Of a stretch of 64,000 bases of DNA, positions 1 through 11,528 are shown piece by piece; position 1 is the stretch's first letter; the number at the start of each line of letters is the position of its first letter. The stretch is taken from the NCBI GenBank assembly GCA_016124675.1, contig WGNG01000009.1, positions 1 through 64,000 on the forward strand, in the 5' to 3' direction. Source of the DNA: Alphaproteobacteria bacterium. Its GTDB lineage: Bacteria > Pseudomonadota > Alphaproteobacteria > Caulobacterales > Maricaulaceae. The notes under the pieces were generated by a model. It had not been told where the DNA came from. It ran no database searches and saw only the letters and a program-made list of their open reading frames with translations. Both the position numbers and the translations under genes were made by a program.

Positions 1-79
1 CCTCCTTCGTGCTCACACCGGCATCGTGCTCGCGCAGCATGCCGATAATCTGCTCTTCCGAATAACGGCTCTTTCGCAT
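1..79 (-). CDS. IS3-family transposase OrfA, N-terminal fragment (runs off the window)
   Basis: Twenty-six codons are visible, starting MRKSRYSEEQIIGMLREHDAG, which is the usual beginning of the small helix-turn-helix OrfA subunit of IS3-family elements (IS407/IS51-like). OrfA binds the IS ends, and OrfAB, made by frameshifting, is the transposase. An SD-like GAGGAGAG lies about 8 bases before the ATG. The rest of the gene is outside the window, so whether the element is intact is unknown. Confidence 0.75.
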   Translation of the reverse strand, partial: MRKSRYSEEQIIGMLREHDAGVSTKE

Positions 80-140
80 GGTCCATCCTCTCCTCGATGG
101 ACTCTACCATTCAGTGGCCGGAAATCAGGGGGCTGGGTCA
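1..140 (-). mobile_element. Left-over end of an IS3-family insertion sequence
   Basis: The element runs off the left edge of the window, so only one end is seen. It holds the start of an orfA-type transposase gene (ATG at 79, minus strand) and about 60 bases of leader. Read on the minus strand, the probable terminus begins near 140 with TGACCCAGCCCCC and continues to the GGAGAGGA ribosome-binding site. The exact end and any target duplication cannot be fixed from one end. Confidence 0.7.
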
Positions 141-332
141 CTGCCGTGGGCCGAGCAGATGGCGGCGGTGTCGGGTGGGGCAGGTAAGTGTGGTGTCGCC
201 GCCCGCCCGCATGGACCAGCGGCGTGACACAGCGCAGATTTGACAGCAGACTTTGGTGAGCAGCACAAAATCTGAAGAGAAGGAGCTCAAAACCATCGAT
301 ATTTTTTTGACAATGATAACGCAAATTGATTA

Positions 333-560
333 TCACCAAGTATGCGTCCATGTCCCACTCGATGTTTCGATAACGACTTCAATGAAGTCACACTCTCCAA
401 AAGGATTGTCGTATCTGTCTATAGGAGCCCTAGCTTGAAAATCAACTGATCTTCCAAATTGCAATGATATCGGAAAATTTGGTGCGGTAGCACGCGACCT
501 TGCGCATTCATCTAAGCATAGTGATCGTTAGCAGGAGCCGACACACCGGTCAAGCTTATT
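333..560 (-). pseudogene. Truncated copy of the C-terminal domain of the FGE-like lipoprotein at 1687-4290
   Basis: Read on the minus strand from 491 to the TGA at 333-335, this encodes 52 residues starting ATAPNFPISLQFGRSVDF and containing GECDFIEV. They align without gaps to the last 52 residues of the 1687-4290 protein (ATEPNFPISLQFGRSIDF, SECDFIEV). Around the fragment's 431-490 the DNA is almost identical to the plus strand near 4145-4205. Upstream the match weakens. GSC is still recognisable at 537-539, but an in-frame TAA follows at 528-530 and no start or FGE domain remains. It is therefore a decayed 3' remnant, inverted relative to the intact gene, left near the IS end. The bases between it and the IS (141-332) show no gene. 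Confidence 0.8.
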
Positions 561-650
561 CCAATCAGAGATACGCCCTGTGAGTGACCGTTGTGCCGAA
601 CCCGGCAGGACGATAGGCGTTTCATGTTATTCGAACCTTATGGCCTTTTG

Positions 651-1508
651 CTATGTCGAGCGACCCACATCGTATCCGATCATGAACATAGCTTTCTCAA
701 GGCGAGGAAGGCCGCATGCAGGTGATAGTGCAATCATTGAACTTACGGTGTTGAGTATGTCGCTCGCATGGCGCACCATTTTGGCGTGAAGCCTGTCTCG
801 GCGGGACCCAAATAACCTGGGGAAATTGAAATCCTCGTCCGACGGATTTCTCACCGGCGCTCCCCGGGACGATCCCCATGGAAAAGCCAAGGCTTCCGGC
901 ACAGCGCCGCGATAGCCTATCGATCGCAGATAATCCTTTGCCTGCAGGCCAAGTGCAGCGCCAACCCTGCCGTCATAAATGACCAGTTTGGCTGGATCGA
1001 AAGCCGCGTAGACCTTAGTCATTGCTGAATTCATGAGCAGGTCATCACCGTCAAAGCGGTCGAGTTCGGCTTTCATGCTCGTTAGTATGGAGTGAGCTTC
1101 TAGAATCTTGGTGCAGAGGCTTCCATTTGCTTCTTCCCGTTGCAGCCAAATAACTGATTTATCACTACCGCCTTTGCGCTGCCGCCCTACGCCTCCCCAA
1201 ACGAAGATGGATTGACAGGTATAACAGGCTAATCTATCGTCTTTATTTTGCACTGCTTTTATCAATTGCTCAGAAAGGGTCACATAATCCAATTCCGAAT
1301 TATTATCAATCCAGGAATAACGCTCGGCCGCTTGGCTTATAGAGTTACAATACCAATTTTTATCAACATTATCTAATGTCAGCTCGAAGCTCAATTGTCG
1401 CCATCTTTTCCAAGCTTTATGACGAGTGATGGGGTAACTGTGATAAAAATCTGCTTTCCACCTGCTGGCAAGGAATGCGGCGAAGCCATTCTTCCAGTCT
1501 TGATCCAT
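651..1508 (-). CDS. Unrecognised protein, 285 aa, accessory region
   Basis: An ATG at 1508 has a good GGAGGG ribosome-binding site 8 bases upstream, and the frame stays open for 285 codons. I do not recognise the family. The protein is soluble, with no signal peptide or membrane segment. It is rich in Trp in its first half and contains a CYTC pair near residue 95. A compact segment near residues 170-195 reads KVYAAFDPAKLVIYDGRVGAALG. Base composition is clearly less GC-rich than the core genes, and many codons end in A or T, so recent acquisition is likely. It is convergent with the pseudogene side and divergent from the 1687 gene. Confidence 0.7.
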   Translation of the reverse strand: MDQDWKNGFAAFLASRWKADFYHSYPITRHKAWKRWRQLSFELTLDNVDKNWYCNSISQAAERYSWIDNNSELDYVTLSEQLIKAVQNKDDRLACYTCQSIFVWGGVGRQRKGGSDKSVIWLQREEANGSLCTKILEAHSILTSMKAELDRFDGDDLLMNSAMTKVYAAFDPAKLVIYDGRVGAALGLQAKDYLRSIGYRGAVPEALAFPWGSSRGAPVRNPSDEDFNFPRLFGSRRDRLHAKMVRHASDILNTVSSMIALSPACGLPRLEKAMFMIGYDVGRST

Positions 1509-1626
1509 CGACCGATCCCTCCGACCGCTTTTCAGAGGAGCGCGCTGCAGGCTGAAGTGCGCGTTGTGTCGCCCGTGAGCTGCCCCTGGTTTCAGTTACT
1601 CGTTTCATTGGGTTCATGCCACCATC

Positions 1627-1655
1627 TTGAGCTTGCATCTGGTTGCATCTAAGTT
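1627..1655 (+). promoter_or_regulatory. Possible sigma-70 promoter for the FGE-like lipoprotein gene
   Basis: TTGAGC (1627-1632) and TAAGTT (1650-1655) are separated by 17 bases, about 32 bases before the preferred ATG at 1687. The -10 match is weak, so this is only a candidate. Confidence 0.3.
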
Positions 1656-1686
1656 TGCCCGTGATGCTTGGAGGGAGAACCACACC

Positions 1687-4290
1687 ATGACGAAAGCCAA
1701 CCGATTTCCAGGCGGCCTGAAACAGTGGGCTTTGCCCTTGTGCGCGCTGGGCGCGCTGGTTCTGGCTAATTGCTCCCCCAGCGATCGTGCTGGCAATGTG
1801 TTTCAGGACCGGTTCACGGATGGATCTGGCCAGGGCCCCGAGATGGTGGTGCTTCCCTCGGGGAGTTTCATCATGGGCTCTCCGTCGTCGGAGGCGGGGC
1901 GCAATGCGGAGCATGAAAGCCCCCAGCGGACGGTGGAGATCGGGTATCGCCTTGCTGTGGGTCGCTATGAGGTGACGGTGGATGAGTATCGCGCCTTTGT
2001 AACGGAGACCGGGCGCAGTGCGAGCGGGGGGTGCTGGACATGGGACGGTTCAGATATCGGCGAGACGGAATCCGCAAGCTGGCAATGGCCTGGATTTGTT
2101 CAATCAGGCAATCATCCCGTGACATGCGTCTCATGGGATGATGCGCTGGCTTATGTGGAGTGGCTGAACCGCAAGACTGGCCTAGTCGTAAGTCCATATC
2201 GTTATCGCCTCCTGAGCGAGGCTGAGTGGGAGTATGCGGCGCGCGCGGGCAGTACGACGGCCTTCAGCTTTGGCGATGATGAGAGCCAGCTTGGCGCCCA
2301 TGCCTGGTTTGAGGATAACTCCAACTTCAGCACGCAGCCTGTTGGTGGCAAGCGCCCCAACGGTTTCGGGCTCTACGACATGCATGGCAATGTGTGGGAG
2401 TGGGTCGAGGATTGCGGGAATGAAAGCCATGCGGGCGCACCGACCGACGGCTCGGCGCGCACAACCGGGGATTGCTCCAACCGTGTGCTCCGCGGCGGCT
2501 CGTGGGTCAACCTCCCGCAGTTCCTGCGCTCCGCCAACCGCATCGGGGTCACTCCTGGCGGCCGGGGCAGCAGCCTCGGGTTCCGTCTTGCGAGGACGCT
2601 TCCCGAAAGCTCGAGCAGTGCAGGTGCAGCGCAAGGCGGTCTGGGAAGCGATAACAACACGACTGTTTCTGATCCGTGCGCGTCAGCGCGAGCGGATTGG
2701 CCTGATATTGAGCGCGCGACTGACCGGGCGGTGGTGCAGGCGTATCGAACGCGCCTCCCCGAAGCCTGTACGACCCAGATCGACTTGGCCGATACGCGTC
2801 TGAGTGCGCTTCAGCCATCGCCGCCTCCTGCATCTGTGCCGTCATCTGCCATTGGAGCTGCAGGGGGTGTCGGGAGCGATGTGTCCGCCGAAGCGCAGAG
2901 CCGCATTGGTGAGGTGTTCCGGGACCGGTTTACAACCGGGTCGGGCCAGGGCCCCGAGATGGTTGTTCTGCAGCCGGGTAGTTTCACGATGGGTTCACCG
3001 GCGTCGGAGCCGGGGCGAGCCCTGGATGAGGGTCCCCAGCTTACTGTGCAAGTCGAGGATCGCCTCGCTGTGGGGCGCTATGAGGTGACGTTTGCGGAGT
3101 GGGACGCGTGCGTGGCTGCTGGGGGCTGTAACGGATATCGTCCCGACGATAGAGGCTGGGGCCGAGATGATCGGCCCGTGATCCGTGTGAGCTGGAATGA
3201 TGCACTGGCTTATGCAGACTGGCTCAACCAAAGCACTGGGCTGACAGGGAGTGCACATCGTTATCGTCTCCTGAGCGAGGCTGAGTGGGAGTATGCGGCG
3301 CGCGCGGGCACGACCACGGCGTACAGCTTCGGCGAAGATGCAGGCCAGCTTGGCGCCCATGCCTGGTTCGCGGAGAACTCCAACGAAAGCACGCAGCCTG
3401 TTGGCGGCAGGCGTCCCAACGCGTTCGGCCTTTACGACATGCATGGCAATGTTCAGGAATGGGTTGAGGATTGCTGGAATGATAGCCATTCAGGGGTGCC
3501 GACGGACGGCTCGGCGCAAACAAAAGGGGATTGTTCGATCCGCGTCTTCCGAGGCGGATCATGGTTTAGCGGCCCTTTAATCCTGCGCTCATCTAATCGT
3601 AACCGAGGGGCCCCGAGCACTCAGAGCAATGTTATTGGGTTCCGTCTTGCGAGGACGCTTCCCGAAAGCTCGAGCAGTGCAGGTGCAGCGCAGGGCGGTC
3701 TGGGAAGCGATAACAACACGGCTGTTTCTGATCCGTGCGCGTCAGCGCGAGCGGATTGGCCTGATATTGAGCGCGCGACTGACCGGGCGGTGGTGCAGGC
3801 GTATCGAACACGCCTCCCCGAAGCCTGTACGACCCAGATCGACTTGGCCGATGCGCGTCTGAGTGCGCTTCAGCCATCGCCGCCTCCTGCACCTGTGCCG
3901 TCATCTGCTCGTAGTGCTGCAACTGAGCAAAGGCACCAGCCATCGCCGCTTCGGGCGCAGAGGCAGCAGCCGTCGCCTGTCCGAGTGGAGAAGTACATCG
4001 AATTGGATCCCCTGTTTTTCTATCCGATTTACGTCCTTCGAGTTAGGGGGATAACAGATGACGTAGAGCTTCTGAGCATTGTGGTTGATCGCGGTAGCTG
4101 CACGCTCTCACGCGGAGGAAGCGCCCTTAGCGTCTATATGCCTGCTACAGAACCAAATTTTCCGATATCATTGCAATTTGGAAGATCAATTGATTTTATT
4201 GTAAGGAATCCTAGCAATCAATTTAGTGAGTGTGACTTTATTGAGGTCGAAGTTGAAACGACAAATGGATCTTGGACGGCTAACTGGTAG
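1687..4290 (+). CDS. Lipoprotein with two FGE/SUMF1-like (C-type-lectin fold) domains and a unique C-terminal domain
   Basis: I place the start at 1687, where GGAGGGA lies 10 bases upstream and the paralog at 4339 starts at the same residue (MTK). That gives 867 aa. A lipoprotein signal ends in LVLANC (the -1 Asn is unusual; the paralog has LAGC). FGE-like domain 1 spans about residues 53-305 and domain 2 about 425-658, with family landmarks YRLLSEAEWEYAARAG, GLYDMHGNV.EWVED, RGGSW and GFRLAR. Each is followed by a nearly identical Ser/Pro-rich linker containing DWPDIERATD. The last 100 residues form a separate beta-rich domain of lower GC content. Only the fold is inferred, not formylglycine chemistry. 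This sequence family is common among DGR target proteins, and residues 262-296 look like a DGR variable region. Likely acts at the cell surface as a binding protein. Confidence 0.85.
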   Translation: MTKANRFPGGLKQWALPLCALGALVLANCSPSDRAGNVFQDRFTDGSGQGPEMVVLPSGSFIMGSPSSEAGRNAEHESPQRTVEIGYRLAVGRYEVTVDEYRAFVTETGRSASGGCWTWDGSDIGETESASWQWPGFVQSGNHPVTCVSWDDALAYVEWLNRKTGLVVSPYRYRLLSEAEWEYAARAGSTTAFSFGDDESQLGAHAWFEDNSNFSTQPVGGKRPNGFGLYDMHGNVWEWVEDCGNESHAGAPTDGSARTTGDCSNRVLRGGSWVNLPQFLRSANRIGVTPGGRGSSLGFRLARTLPESSSSAGAAQGGLGSDNNTTVSDPCASARADWPDIERATDRAVVQAYRTRLPEACTTQIDLADTRLSALQPSPPPASVPSSAIGAAGGVGSDVSAEAQSRIGEVFRDRFTTGSGQGPEMVVLQPGSFTMGSPASEPGRALDEGPQLTVQVEDRLAVGRYEVTFAEWDACVAAGGCNGYRPDDRGWGRDDRPVIRVSWNDALAYADWLNQSTGLTGSAHRYRLLSEAEWEYAARAGTTTAYSFGEDAGQLGAHAWFAENSNESTQPVGGRRPNAFGLYDMHGNVQEWVEDCWNDSHSGVPTDGSAQTKGDCSIRVFRGGSWFSGPLILRSSNRNRGAPSTQSNVIGFRLARTLPESSSSAGAAQGGLGSDNNTAVSDPCASARADWPDIERATDRAVVQAYRTRLPEACTTQIDLADARLSALQPSPPPAPVPSSARSAATEQRHQPSPLRAQRQQPSPVRVEKYIELDPLFFYPIYVLRVRGITDDVELLSIVVDRGSCTLSRGGSALSVYMPATEPNFPISLQFGRSIDFIVRNPSNQFSECDFIEVEVETTNGSWTANW
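2470..2577 (+). other. Candidate DGR variable region, copy 1 (inside FGE domain 1)
   Basis: Aligned without gaps to 5074-5181 (constant offset 2604), this stretch differs at 20 bases in 14 codons, all at codon positions 1 or 2. Twelve of the codons are NNC, one is NAT and one is NGG. The pattern fits a template with AAC, AAT and AGG at those places. The encoded frame is RV-x-RGGSW-xxx-PQFLRSA-x-R-xxx-TPG-x-R-xxx-LGFRLAR. The 32 bases from 2575 on are identical in both genes. Confidence 0.75.
2578..2849 (+). repeat. Internal direct repeat, copy A
   Basis: About 272 bases recur at 3637-3908 (offset 1059) with roughly five mismatches. The repeat starts exactly at the GFRLAR end of each FGE-like domain and covers the linker. 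Such high identity next to much more diverged FGE domains suggests recent duplication or gene conversion of the linker. Confidence 0.9.
3637..3908 (+). repeat. Internal direct repeat, copy B
   Basis: Second copy of the linker repeat in the same gene, following FGE-like domain 2. The FGE domain just before it uses many different synonymous codons, so the shared identity begins abruptly at GGGTTCCGTC. Confidence 0.9.
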
Positions 4291-4338
4291 TTTAGCGCAT
4301 CCTTGGTGACCGGGGATGCTTGGGAGGAAAACCACGCC

Positions 4339-5214
4339 ATGACGAAACCCATCCGATTTCCAGCCGGCCTGAAACAGTGGGCTTTGCCCTTGTGCGCGCT
4401 CTGTGCGCTTGTTCTGGCCGGTTGCGCTCCTGAAACAGAGGGCCGTCGTGCTGGCGAGGTATTTCAGGACCGGTTCACGGATGGATCTGGCCAGGGTCCC
4501 GAGATGGTGGTGCTTCCCTCGGGGAGTTTCACCATGGGCTCTCCAGTGTCAGAGGCGGGGCGATTCGATTTCGAGGGCCCCCAGCAGACGGTGGAGATCG
4601 GGCATCGCCTGGCGGTTGGGCGCTATGAGGTGACGTTTGCTGAGTGGGATGCCTGCGTGGCTGATGGGGGCTGCAACGGCTATCGCCCCTACGATGAGGG
4701 CTTGGCCAGGGGCACTAGTCCGGTGATGAATGTCTCCTGGAATGATGCACAGGACTATGTGACCTGGCTGAACCGCAAGACCGGGCTGACCGGGAGCCCA
4801 TACCGCTACCGTCTCCTGAGCGAAGCTGAGTGGGAGTATGCGGCTCGGGCCGGAACGACGACGGCGTACAGCTTTGGCGATGATGCGGGGCAGCTGGGCG
4901 CCCATGCCTGGTTTGAGGATAACTCCAACTTCAGCACGCAGCCTGTTGGTGGCAGGCGTCCCAACGCGTTCGGCCTTTACGACATGCATGGCAATGTTCA
5001 GGAGTGGGTCGAGGATTGCGCGAATGAAAGCCATGCGGGCGCACCGACCGACGGCTCGGCGCGCACAACCGGGAATTGCTCCAGCCGTGTGTACCGCGGC
5101 GGCTCGTGGATCCTCGACCCGCAGTTCCTGCGCTCCGCCTTCCGCCTCTGGTTCACTCCTGGCAACCGGGACAACTTCCTCGGGTTCCGTCTTGCGAGGA
5201 CGCTTCCCGATTAG
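4339..5214 (+). CDS. Lipoprotein with one FGE/SUMF1-like domain; candidate DGR target
   Basis: The start at 4339 has a GGGAGGAAA site upstream and matches the paralog, giving 291 aa. A lipoprotein signal ends in the canonical LAGC. A single FGE-like domain fills the rest: SGSFTMGSP near residue 60, YRLLSEAEWEYAARAG, then GLYDMHGNVQEWVED, RGGSW and the terminal GFRLARTLPD. The protein stops right after the domain, as DGR target proteins usually do. Residues 246-280 are the hypervariable stretch. Among known DGR targets, the Treponema TvpA protein is also a surface lipoprotein of this fold. The first 40 codons and the leader are close copies of the gene at 1687, so the pair arose by duplication. 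Ligand unknown. Confidence 0.88.
   Translation: MTKPIRFPAGLKQWALPLCALCALVLAGCAPETEGRRAGEVFQDRFTDGSGQGPEMVVLPSGSFTMGSPVSEAGRFDFEGPQQTVEIGHRLAVGRYEVTFAEWDACVADGGCNGYRPYDEGLARGTSPVMNVSWNDAQDYVTWLNRKTGLTGSPYRYRLLSEAEWEYAARAGTTTAYSFGDDAGQLGAHAWFEDNSNFSTQPVGGRRPNAFGLYDMHGNVQEWVEDCANESHAGAPTDGSARTTGNCSSRVYRGGSWILDPQFLRSAFRLWFTPGNRDNFLGFRLARTLPD
5074..5181 (+). other. Candidate DGR variable region, copy 2 (3' end of the gene)
   Basis: This is the partner of 2470-2577. In the roughly 70 bases just before it the two genes differ at only one base, and the 32 bases 5179-5210 are identical. That GC-rich stretch, CTCGGGTTCCGTCTTGCGAG and onward, sits where an initiation-of-mutagenic-homing site would be. 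Fifteen of the 20 differences have A in one copy, and no third-position base differs. Confidence 0.78.
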
Positions 5215-5221
5215 GGAAGCG
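5201..5221 (+). promoter_or_regulatory. Perfect hairpin/cruciform just after the variable region
   Basis: CGCTTCCC (5201-5208), loop GATTA (5209-5213), GGGAAGCG (5214-5221). The stem spans the stop codon at 5212-5214. DGR targets such as the Bordetella phage mtd gene carry a similar short-loop 8-bp stem just downstream of the homing site. There is no T-run after it, so it does not look like a normal terminator. Copy 1 at 2470-2577 lacks the second arm. Confidence 0.65.
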
Positions 5222-5627
5222 GTTACATGTTGATCTGTTTACCTGTTTACCTGTTGAGACGGCGAGAGGTGGACGGTGAAGCGCTGGGTGAAGTGGCAAA
5301 CACCCCTGTCCCGCGTAGCGGGTTCGTAATTTTTCACTACTTTACGCGCCCCTACGCCCACCTCGGGTTTCTCTGGCCATATGCCTGGCGAAAGAACCGT
5401 GCCCAAAAGTGCGGTTGGCTCAAATTTACAACCGCCTGTAATAATTGGCTTTTGTTCAAGCGCACCAATTTCGTCGAGGTGCGCTCGGTTTGAGACCAGG
5501 GCGGTTCAGAGCCCGAAATCCGGGCGCTCGCCAGTCTCCGTGGTTCGCATGGCGTGCACAAACCCCTTTGAAATAAAAAGAAAAAGGGCTCCAATGGGAG
5601 TCTCGTTTCGGGTTTGCTATTGGAAAC
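5222..5627. other. Non-coding stretch between the island genes and tRNA-Ser
   Basis: About 400 bases with no convincing gene. A short direct repeat GTTTACCTGTTTACCTGTT lies near 5237-5255. Next to the tRNA, 5571-5605 on the minus strand reads as a small hairpin (CTCC/GGAG) followed by CCCTTTTTCTTTTT, a possible terminator of the tRNA gene. I saw no integrase and no second copy of the tRNA 3' end. Confidence 0.5.
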
Positions 5628-5717
5628 TGGCGGAGAGGGAGGGATTCGAACCCTCGGAACGCTTGCACGCTCAACGGTTTTCGAGACCGCCCCGATCGAC
5701 CACTCCGGCACCTCTCC
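5628..5717 (-). tRNA. tRNA-Ser(CGA)
   Basis: On the minus strand the gene starts GGAGAGGTGCCGGAGTGG and ends CCTCTCCGCCA. The acceptor stem GGAGAGG/CCTCTCC pairs fully. The T-arm contains GGTTCGAATCC, and a long variable arm typical of class II serine tRNAs is present. The anticodon loop CTCGAAA gives anticodon CGA, which reads UCG codons. The CCA end is encoded. Its 3' end faces the accessory region at 1-5627, the side where integrative elements usually insert. Confidence 0.96.
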
Positions 5718-10260: not shown

Positions 10261-11528
10261 CCCATCGTGACCGCTTCGCCGCCCTGGCCGCAAACGGACG
10301 CGCCGCAAGGCGCGCGCTGGAGGCCGCAGGGCCGGACGCGCGCAGTGCTGCGCTGCGCGCTGGCGCAGCGCAAATCCGCGCGAACGCCTGCGCCATCCTG
10401 GGCATCAACGCCCGCGAGACCGACGCCGCCCGGGAACGCGGCCAGACCGGCGCCTTTGTCGACCGGCTGAGCCTTGACGGCCCCCGTCTCGAAGCGATCG
10501 CGGCGGGCGTGGAGGCCATCGCCGGCCTGCCCGATCCGGTAGGCGGCGAGCGCCGGCGCTGGACACGGCCCAACGGGCTGGAGATCAGCGAGATATCGGT
10601 TCCCATCGGACTCATCGGCGTCATCTTTGAAAGCCGGCCCAATGTCACGGCGGACGCGGCCGCGCTCTGCCTGCGGGCGGGCAATGGCGTCATCCTGCGC
10701 GGCGGCTCCGAGACATCGGGCACCAGCGCCGCGCTTGCCGACGCCATGCGCGCCGGCCTTGCCGCCGCCGGCCTGCCGCAAGACGCCATCCAGACTCCGC
10801 CCGATGCGGACCGCGCCTGGGTCACCGCCATGCTGAGCCTGGATGAGGGCGGGTGCGATCTGGTCATTCCGCGCGGCGGCAAGAATCTCGTCGCTCATGT
10901 GCGCCAGCACGCGCGCGTGCCGGTGCTGAGCCATCTTGACGGGGTGTGCCATGTCTACGTCCATGCGGGCGCGGATCCCGACAAGGCGCTGCGCATCACG
11001 CTGGATTCCAAGATGCGCCGCACCGGGGTTTGCAACGCGGCCGAGACGCTGCTCATCGATGCGGCCTGCGCGCCGGACCTGCTCCCGGTGATCGCCGGGG
11101 CGCTGGCCGGGGCCGGATGCGCCCTGCGCGGCGACGCGGCCGCGCGCGCTCTGGTTCCCGGCATGCAGGCGGCGACTGAAGAAGACTGGAATACCGAGTA
11201 TCTCGACGCCATCATGTCGGTGCGCGTGGTGGACGGGATGGACCATGCGCTGGCGCACATCGCCGCGCACGGATCGGGTCATACCGACGCCATCGTCACC
11301 GAGGACGCGCACGCCGCCGCGCGCTTCCTTGCCGGGGTGGATTCAGCGGTCGCCCTGCATAACGCCGCGACGGGATTTTCTGACGGCGGCGAGTTCGGCT
11401 TTGGCGGCGAGATCGGCATCGCCACCGGGCGGCTGCACGCGCGCGGACCGGTGGGCGCGGCCCAGCTGACCACCCACAGATACATCGTCCGCGGCGACGG
11501 CCAGGTGCGCGGATCATGGCCGCGCTGA
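10257..11528 (+). CDS. proA: Gamma-glutamyl phosphate reductase
   Basis: Second step of proline synthesis: NADPH-dependent reduction of gamma-glutamyl phosphate to glutamate semialdehyde. 423 aa, aldehyde-dehydrogenase fold. The catalytic cysteine lies in RRTGVCNAAETLLID. Other landmarks are PIGLIGVIFESRPNVT and the end GGEFGFGGEIGI. It starts with a GTG whose GTGA overlaps the proB stop and runs 13 bases into nadD, so proB, proA and nadD are translationally coupled. Confidence 0.97.

Follow-up and report, generated by a model that had tools for sequence, protein, structure and literature searches.

A diversity-generating retroelement (DGR) of Treponema denticola acts on TvpA, a target of the FGE/C-type-lectin type that carries its variable region (VR) at the C-terminus (PMC4891356). 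T. denticola isolates without the reverse transcriptase (RT) and the template repeat (TR) retain target genes, which have been termed remnants (PMC4891356), and nanoarchaeal DGR fragments without an RT have been called fossils or remotely diversified (PMC4372165). Diversification in trans has been inferred in Thiohalocapsa (PMC10907252), and a global survey states that remote targets would escape its detection (PMC8144416). In the Bordetella phage BPP-1, a target hairpin with a GC-rich stem of 7-10 bp and a GRNA loop directs homing (PMC3240598); these articles are cited here and below from excerpts. Here we describe two FGE-type lipoprotein-like genes with VRs in a stretch of 64,000 nucleotides, hereafter the window (positions 1 to 64,000 of contig WGNG01000009.1, Alphaproteobacteria bacterium, Maricaulaceae). 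Its source genome is referred to as G000, and other G and L numbers denote the genomes and loci with which it was compared.

The genes of the window share with the TvpA DGR, and with the DGRs of three genomes of the same order (G275, G200 and G263), an FGE-type, putatively C-type-lectin-like target with a C-terminal VR, AAC-rich adenine sites and the codon frame RGGSW...GFR. G275, G200 and G263 possess a TR and an RT, whereas in G000 neither was found. Probably, the genes are orphan targets on a genomic island, written by a DGR that was lost, that stayed in the donor or that resides on an absent mobile element. G000 joins the already known orphan DGR targets, those of T. denticola and the nanoarchaea being likewise VR-bearing targets without core DGR parts, and differs from them in belonging to another bacterial order, in its tRNA-Ser island and in the VR genes that another genome of its genus carries next to prophage genes. 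In the literature searched, no paper was recognised as describing these genes.

Paired variable regions in two FGE-type genes

The two genes and their VRs are arranged as follows.

1687 to 4290, plus strand: gene 1, encoding a lipoprotein-like precursor in which two FGE-sulfatase domains precede an unassigned C-terminal part
2470 to 2577, plus strand: VR1, the variable region in the first FGE domain of gene 1
3529 to 3636, plus strand: VR2, a variable-region copy in the second FGE domain of gene 1, with third-position changes
4339 to 5214, plus strand: gene 2, lipoprotein-like, with a single FGE-sulfatase domain
5074 to 5181, plus strand: VR3, the variable region of gene 2

Pfam matched PF03781 in two stretches of gene 1 (E 1.7e-117) and in gene 2 (E 9e-56), in agreement with the FGE-like lipoprotein genes proposed by a first-pass annotation of the window. 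By reading, the N-termini of both genes are lipoprotein-like (...LVLANC in gene 1 and a lipobox read as LAGC in gene 2); the C-terminal stretch of gene 1 (3991-4287) had no match in Pfam. The best PDB sequence match was PvdO (5hha), followed by TvpA (2y3c), a DGR variable protein with which the alignment remains ungapped across the variable region. Read in this way, the FGE-type domains would be C-type-lectin-like presenters of the VR.

The ungapped alignment of VR1 and VR3 shows 20 base differences spread over 14 codons (12 NNC, one NAT and one NGG); A is present in one copy at 15 of these sites, and all 20 changes alter the residue. By codon position, the differences number 11, 9 and 0 in the 36 codons of the VRs, compared with 30, 40 and 69 over 225 codons further upstream in these genes (third against first and second positions, Fisher p = 4.4e-6). 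The pattern had been reported by the first-pass annotation, and our recount returned the same numbers of differences, codon types and A-bearing sites; ordinary divergence, which the annotation had judged unfit to produce it, is ruled out by the codon-position counts. Because third positions differ at 69 of 225 codons upstream and at none in the VRs, the writing of the VRs appears to be recent relative to the gene duplication. The 70 bases preceding VR1 and VR3 contain one difference (2417/5021), and the last difference within the VRs is followed by 33 identical bases (2574-2606). The stretch without third-position changes starts by 2407 at the latest, that is, at least 63 bases ahead of the first variable site.

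Over the 32 codons from RGGSW to GFR, VR2 shows 39 differences from VR1, 18 of them at third positions, and also 18 third-position differences from VR3; it is therefore regarded as an older or differently derived copy. A TR matching these VRs would be expected to show the frame GGCTCGTGG, then CTGCGCTCCGCC, then GGGTTCCG.

In the sense of the minus strand, positions 335-495 correspond to part of the 3' end of gene 1, in a copy that is inverted and decayed; its arms align with 4140-4213 (85%) and 4215-4288 (72%). Another gene of the family may therefore once have stood there in the opposite orientation.

Variable sites and template adenines within the order

An inferred template was used as query against 398 genomes of the order to which the window belongs (E<=1e-4), and the RT of G275 was searched (E<=1e-20) in what we assume to be the same 398 genomes. 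Up to two candidates per genome were scored for the VR/TR query and up to four for the RT, and both counts are lower bounds. At least 18 of the 398 genomes matched the VR/TR query, the weakest matches of which may be plain FGE genes, and at least 4 matched the RT (G275, G200, G263 and G279, with no other among the matches scored). The TRs of these four genomes encode RGGSWNNNPxNLRSANRNRNxPTNRNNN or close forms. An RT motif adjoins the TR in G275, G200 and G263, which bears out the AAC-rich template predicted by the first-pass annotation, albeit in related genomes; in G279 the TR stands alone on a short contig. The RT matches of G263 and G279 contain in-frame stops. The bAvd profile (PF22296) scored over its cut-off in G200 and G263 and weakly in G275, and was not found in G279. 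Judged from these sequences, DGRs with the same type of target occur in the order.

In the stretch from RGGSW to GFR, each of the 16 differences that separate VR1 from VR3 coincides with an adenine in the G275 TR, compared with 11 of the 80 constant sites (p = 2e-11). The TRs G263a, G263b and G279 likewise gave 16/16, and that of G200 gave 15/16. Over all 48 codons compared, 19 of the 20 differences fall on G275 TR adenines, the miss at the first site (2470) being attributed to a template that is no longer homologous there, and the other four TRs account for 16, 16, 17 and 19 of the 20. Since the variable sites fall on the adenines of these TRs, the sequence comparison strongly supports VR1 and VR3 as variable regions written by a DGR, as the first-pass annotation had proposed.

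For other pairs, adenine sites were set by the majority of the five templates (29 of 96 positions). Clean pairs had 22/23 (G016), 12/12 (two G263 targets) and 16/17 (the G275 VR against its own TR) of their differences on majority adenines, and the G012b/c pair had 11/13 over 24 codons. Pairs between genomes were less clean (G012a/VR3 20/26, G012a/VR1 14/20, G382a/VR3 18/23, G382a/G348a 17/22), as were G348a/b (17/27) and the older pairs VR1/VR2 (20/39) and VR3/VR2 (22/41).

Self-comparison of loci encoding related proteins revealed a VR together with an A-rich repeat in L142 and L165, and no such pair in the window. L142, from a metagenome-assembled genome (MAG) labelled Asaia bogorensis, also encodes a DGR RT of the GNLTSQ/YVDD type and bAvd. 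In L165 (a MAG contig; 10540-11046), VR and TR are separated by 255 bases, and a pattern search of its 16.9 kb found no RT motif. The same self-comparison showed T-biased pairs in long repeats of L155. L249 (G263:C44) carries a gene for a TIR-FGE protein with a VR, together with its TR and an RT that is interrupted by in-frame stops in the wider match; a second VR gene and a second TR lie about 2 kb away on the opposite strand.

Search for the DGR machinery

The assembly of G000 comprises 2.88 Mb in 23 contigs and is 99.95% complete. Within it, the RVT_1 profile found no gene, DGR RTs, including the type of the order itself, gave no match, and bAvd (PF22296) was not found. The search for a TR, in which all 29 candidates at E<=1 were scored, returned none: three FGE copies match strongly, and the other three matches cover 18-25 bases at E 0.75. 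In a control, RVT_1 matched three DGR RT proteins at 59-66 bits, well over its cut-off of 29.6, so that a DGR RT in G000 should have been seen. Of the first-pass interpretation, then, the DGR-type variable regions stood, and the complete DGR (TR, RT and avd) that it suggested looking for in the same genome was not found.

G012, a one-contig genome of 3.03 Mb from the same genus, contains three VR genes (copies a to c); RVT_1, the RT of the order type, a TR and bAvd were all looked for in it and none matched. In G016, assembled into 610 contigs, two clean VRs lie on different contigs; this genome lacks bAvd and is not among the matches listed for RVT_1 and DGR RT. Across the family, 39 of 137 genomes have RVT_1, the genome collections holding one genome per species.

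The 3' tail of the variable regions

Downstream of VR1 and VR3, comparison of VR and TR tails delimited stretches that resemble an initiation of mutagenic homing (IMH) site, followed by hairpin sequences and a conserved flank.

2578 to 2596, plus strand: IMH-like stretch after VR1, GGGTTCCGTCTTGCGAGGA, in the GGAC form, with a putative IMH role
2597 to 2650, plus strand: split hairpin arms after VR1, CGCTTCCC at 2597-2604 and GGGAAGCG at 2643-2650, with a 38-base linker between them
5182 to 5200, plus strand: IMH-like stretch after VR3, with a putative IMH role
5201 to 5221, plus strand: hairpin after VR3, an 8-bp perfect stem enclosing the stop codon, CGCTTCCC-GATTA-GGGAAGCG
4983 to 5323, plus strand: 3' cassette made up of the end of the FGE domain, VR3, the hairpin and about 100 bp of flank, with 78-80% DNA identity to the three G012 VR genes

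The GGAC form is found in VR1, VR3 and most other VRs, the exceptions being G348b, G382c, G443 and L142. The TRs of the other genomes have GCAC (G275, G263a, G263b and G279) or GTAT (G200).

The stem length of the VR3 hairpin was reached in 0/500 base shuffles; when 5182-5260 was shuffled by dinucleotides, 6 of 200 shuffles folded equally well or better. Stems of at least 7 bp follow 7 of 18 VR tails (three of which are the G012 copies, with one identical hairpin) compared with 2 of 58 other FGE tails. The G012 hairpin is identical to that of VR3, and hairpins of other bases occupy the same place in G382a (8 bp), G348a (9 bp) and G348b (7 bp); the G263 VRs have 7-bp stems 35 and 48 bases downstream. 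Like the BPP-1 hairpin, that of VR3 has a GC-rich stem in the range of 7-10 bp shortly after the VR and the stop codon within it. It differs from BPP-1 in its loop (GATTA, 5 nt, vs GRNA, 4 nt) and in the split arms after VR1, and whereas the BPP-1 target Mtd is a phage protein, the targets here are lipoprotein-like. The VR1 arms fold no better than shuffles (z -1.0) and look as if a linker had been inserted into the hairpin loop; the arms of VR2 are likewise split.

Past the hairpin, 5222-5260 contains a repeated TTTACCTGTT motif that also follows the VRs of G012 and G200 and is possibly a further target-site signal. The VR of G275 is followed by similar ACCTGTT-rich DNA.

Outside the 3' cassette, the gene bodies of G000 and G012 are 65-68% identical in pieces, with a single block of some 77 bases reaching 79-81%. 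In a tree of gene bodies in which 5 of 23 inner branches are well supported, G012 groups with G275, G443 and G263a (98/95), apart from G000. Because the identity of the cassette exceeds that of the bodies and the tree groups them in this manner, the 3' cassette has apparently been transferred from one gene body to another.

A probable genomic island at tRNA-Ser

5628 to 5717, minus strand: tRNA-Ser(CGA), the inner border of the island

The tRNA-Ser(CGA) and the L21 region are present in 10 of the 10 sister genomes fetched. Twelve genomes besides G012 and G000 match L21, of which 9 were compared and G002, G004 and G005 were left out; from these 9 sister genomes, 17.5-20 kb adjoining that tRNA were compared, in which blastn found no match to 1-5621, and in G012 only the VR genes match it. 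The GC content of the island is 0.52-0.63, compared with 0.66-0.76 further along, and the first bases of the contig fall within a likely transposase fragment (HTH_Tnp_1 scored 23.3 bits, slightly below its cut-off). From this we infer that the VR genes lie on an imported low-GC island at tRNA-Ser. The island also encodes a 285-aa protein on the minus strand (651-1508), for which neither Pfam nor PADLOC gave a match.

At the same tRNA-Ser site of G012 (L237; G012:C1:2755000-2774000), the tRNA and the VR gene are separated by a type I restriction-modification set and by an ATPase of defence type, for which the best PADLOC matches were NsnB and PDC-M55A. The tRNA-Ser site is likely an integration hotspot.

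All three VR genes of G012 are followed by a divergent gene or remnant that resembles a repressor gene. The neighbours of copy c match a CI-like repressor, a Sak4-like protein, a helicase and a terminase, and on sequence grounds at least one G012 VR appears to adjoin a prophage. A portal and a major head protein are encoded near the start of the G012 contig and may go with copy a if the contig ends are joined.

Timing of the variable-region writing

In Obg, 79 of 294 third positions differ between G000 and G012. Against G012a, VR1 and VR3 show 9 differences apiece over 48 third positions, and against each other 0 over the same 48. From these counts, the writing of VR1 and VR3, or the import of the island, would postdate the split of the two species. 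Such a late date is compatible with a recent loss of the DGR, with the import of already written genes and with action in trans.

Origin of the variable regions

If the genes are orphan targets, a DGR whose template has AAC codons at the variable sites would have transferred mutated cDNA to the 3' ends of genes for FGE-type lipoproteins, where each template adenine may turn into another base and the remainder of the stretch stays fixed. The writing DGR would since have been lost, have been left behind in the donor, or sit on a mobile element outside the assembly, and the present genes would provide the cell surface with an unchanging set of ligand-binding variants. This explanation is supported by the match of the variable sites to template adenines, by the like pattern in G016 and between the G275 VR and its own TR, by the DGRs of the same target type in the order, by the searches of G000 and G012 that found no machinery, by the low GC and sister-genome comparison of the island, and by the BPP-1-like hairpin after VR3. 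Several observations weigh against it. The homogenised block begins ahead of the start of the related TRs, so that TR copying alone fails to explain it; the cognate TR was not seen, and the template is therefore an inferred one. The hairpin is no general mark in the clade, because the VRs of the RT-bearing G275 and G200 have no hairpin of at least 6 bp at that place, and VR1 itself is without an intact one. A second copy of the tRNA-Ser end, expected of an att site, was not found within the window. A piece may also be missing, since the assembly has 23 contigs and the window begins at a contig end inside the transposase fragment. These same features would favour an RT, Avd and TR that belong to the genome and were lost in an assembly gap, but the completeness of 99.95% and the one-contig G012 of the same genus, without matches to any of the three parts, make such a gap very improbable. 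We reject, as having a negligible chance of being right, an origin without any retroelement, in which gene conversion homogenised the 3' ends of the paralogs and positive selection then acted on ligand-binding residues. The reach of the homogenised block beyond the VR, the tandem arrangement of the FGE paralogs and the apparent movement of the 3' cassette between gene bodies would suit gene conversion, which nevertheless leaves unexplained both the 16/16 changes on template adenines of other families and the absence of silent changes among the 20.

Diversification in trans, with the RT and TR on a phage, a plasmid or a strain-variable element and the VRs still being rewritten, is possible but unlikely. 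It would suit the clean state of VR1 and VR3 (0 third positions in 36 codons vs 69/225 upstream) and the setting of the three VR genes of G012, one beside prophage-family genes and the other two ahead of a repressor gene or its remnant, and there is the precedent inferred elsewhere (PMC10907252). It is also favoured by L282, a viral contig with a TR and a DGR RT 62% identical to that of G275, near genes that resemble G012 prophage genes (one with 68-69% identity across 194 aa and one with 77-78% across 125-128 aa). Against this, the terminase match of L282 spans only 62 aa, for which reason its phage looks decayed, and the best 80 terminase-related viral contigs showed no VR, TR or DGR RT in the stretches fetched. 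The exact IMH pattern had no match in viral contigs, and no VR-like DNA was found in phage records. A search of plasmids with VR DNA returned one weak FGE match; at the protein level, FGE relatives occur in 22 phage records and 678 plasmid records, all below 60% identity.

Probable orphan targets in the order

A wider scheme, which we regard as quite unlikely, is that the VR, the hairpin and the 3' flank form a mobile target cassette on temperate phages and islands of the order, with the RT and TR carried by only some of the phages, the DGR of one phage rewriting in trans the surface lectins of many other prophages and hosts. If true, it would link phage carriage to the diversification of surface proteins. 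For the preferred explanation, that of orphan targets, the comparison with related templates has a more general consequence, namely that the adenines of templates from other families allow DGR variable regions to be recognised even when their own template is missing. Surveys that begin from the RT miss such genes. Clean VRs occur in G000, G012 and G016, in which no RT came to light, and at least 18 of the 398 genomes matched the VR/TR query compared with at least 4 for the RT, which suggests that in this order the target genes outlive or outnumber the machinery that mutates them.

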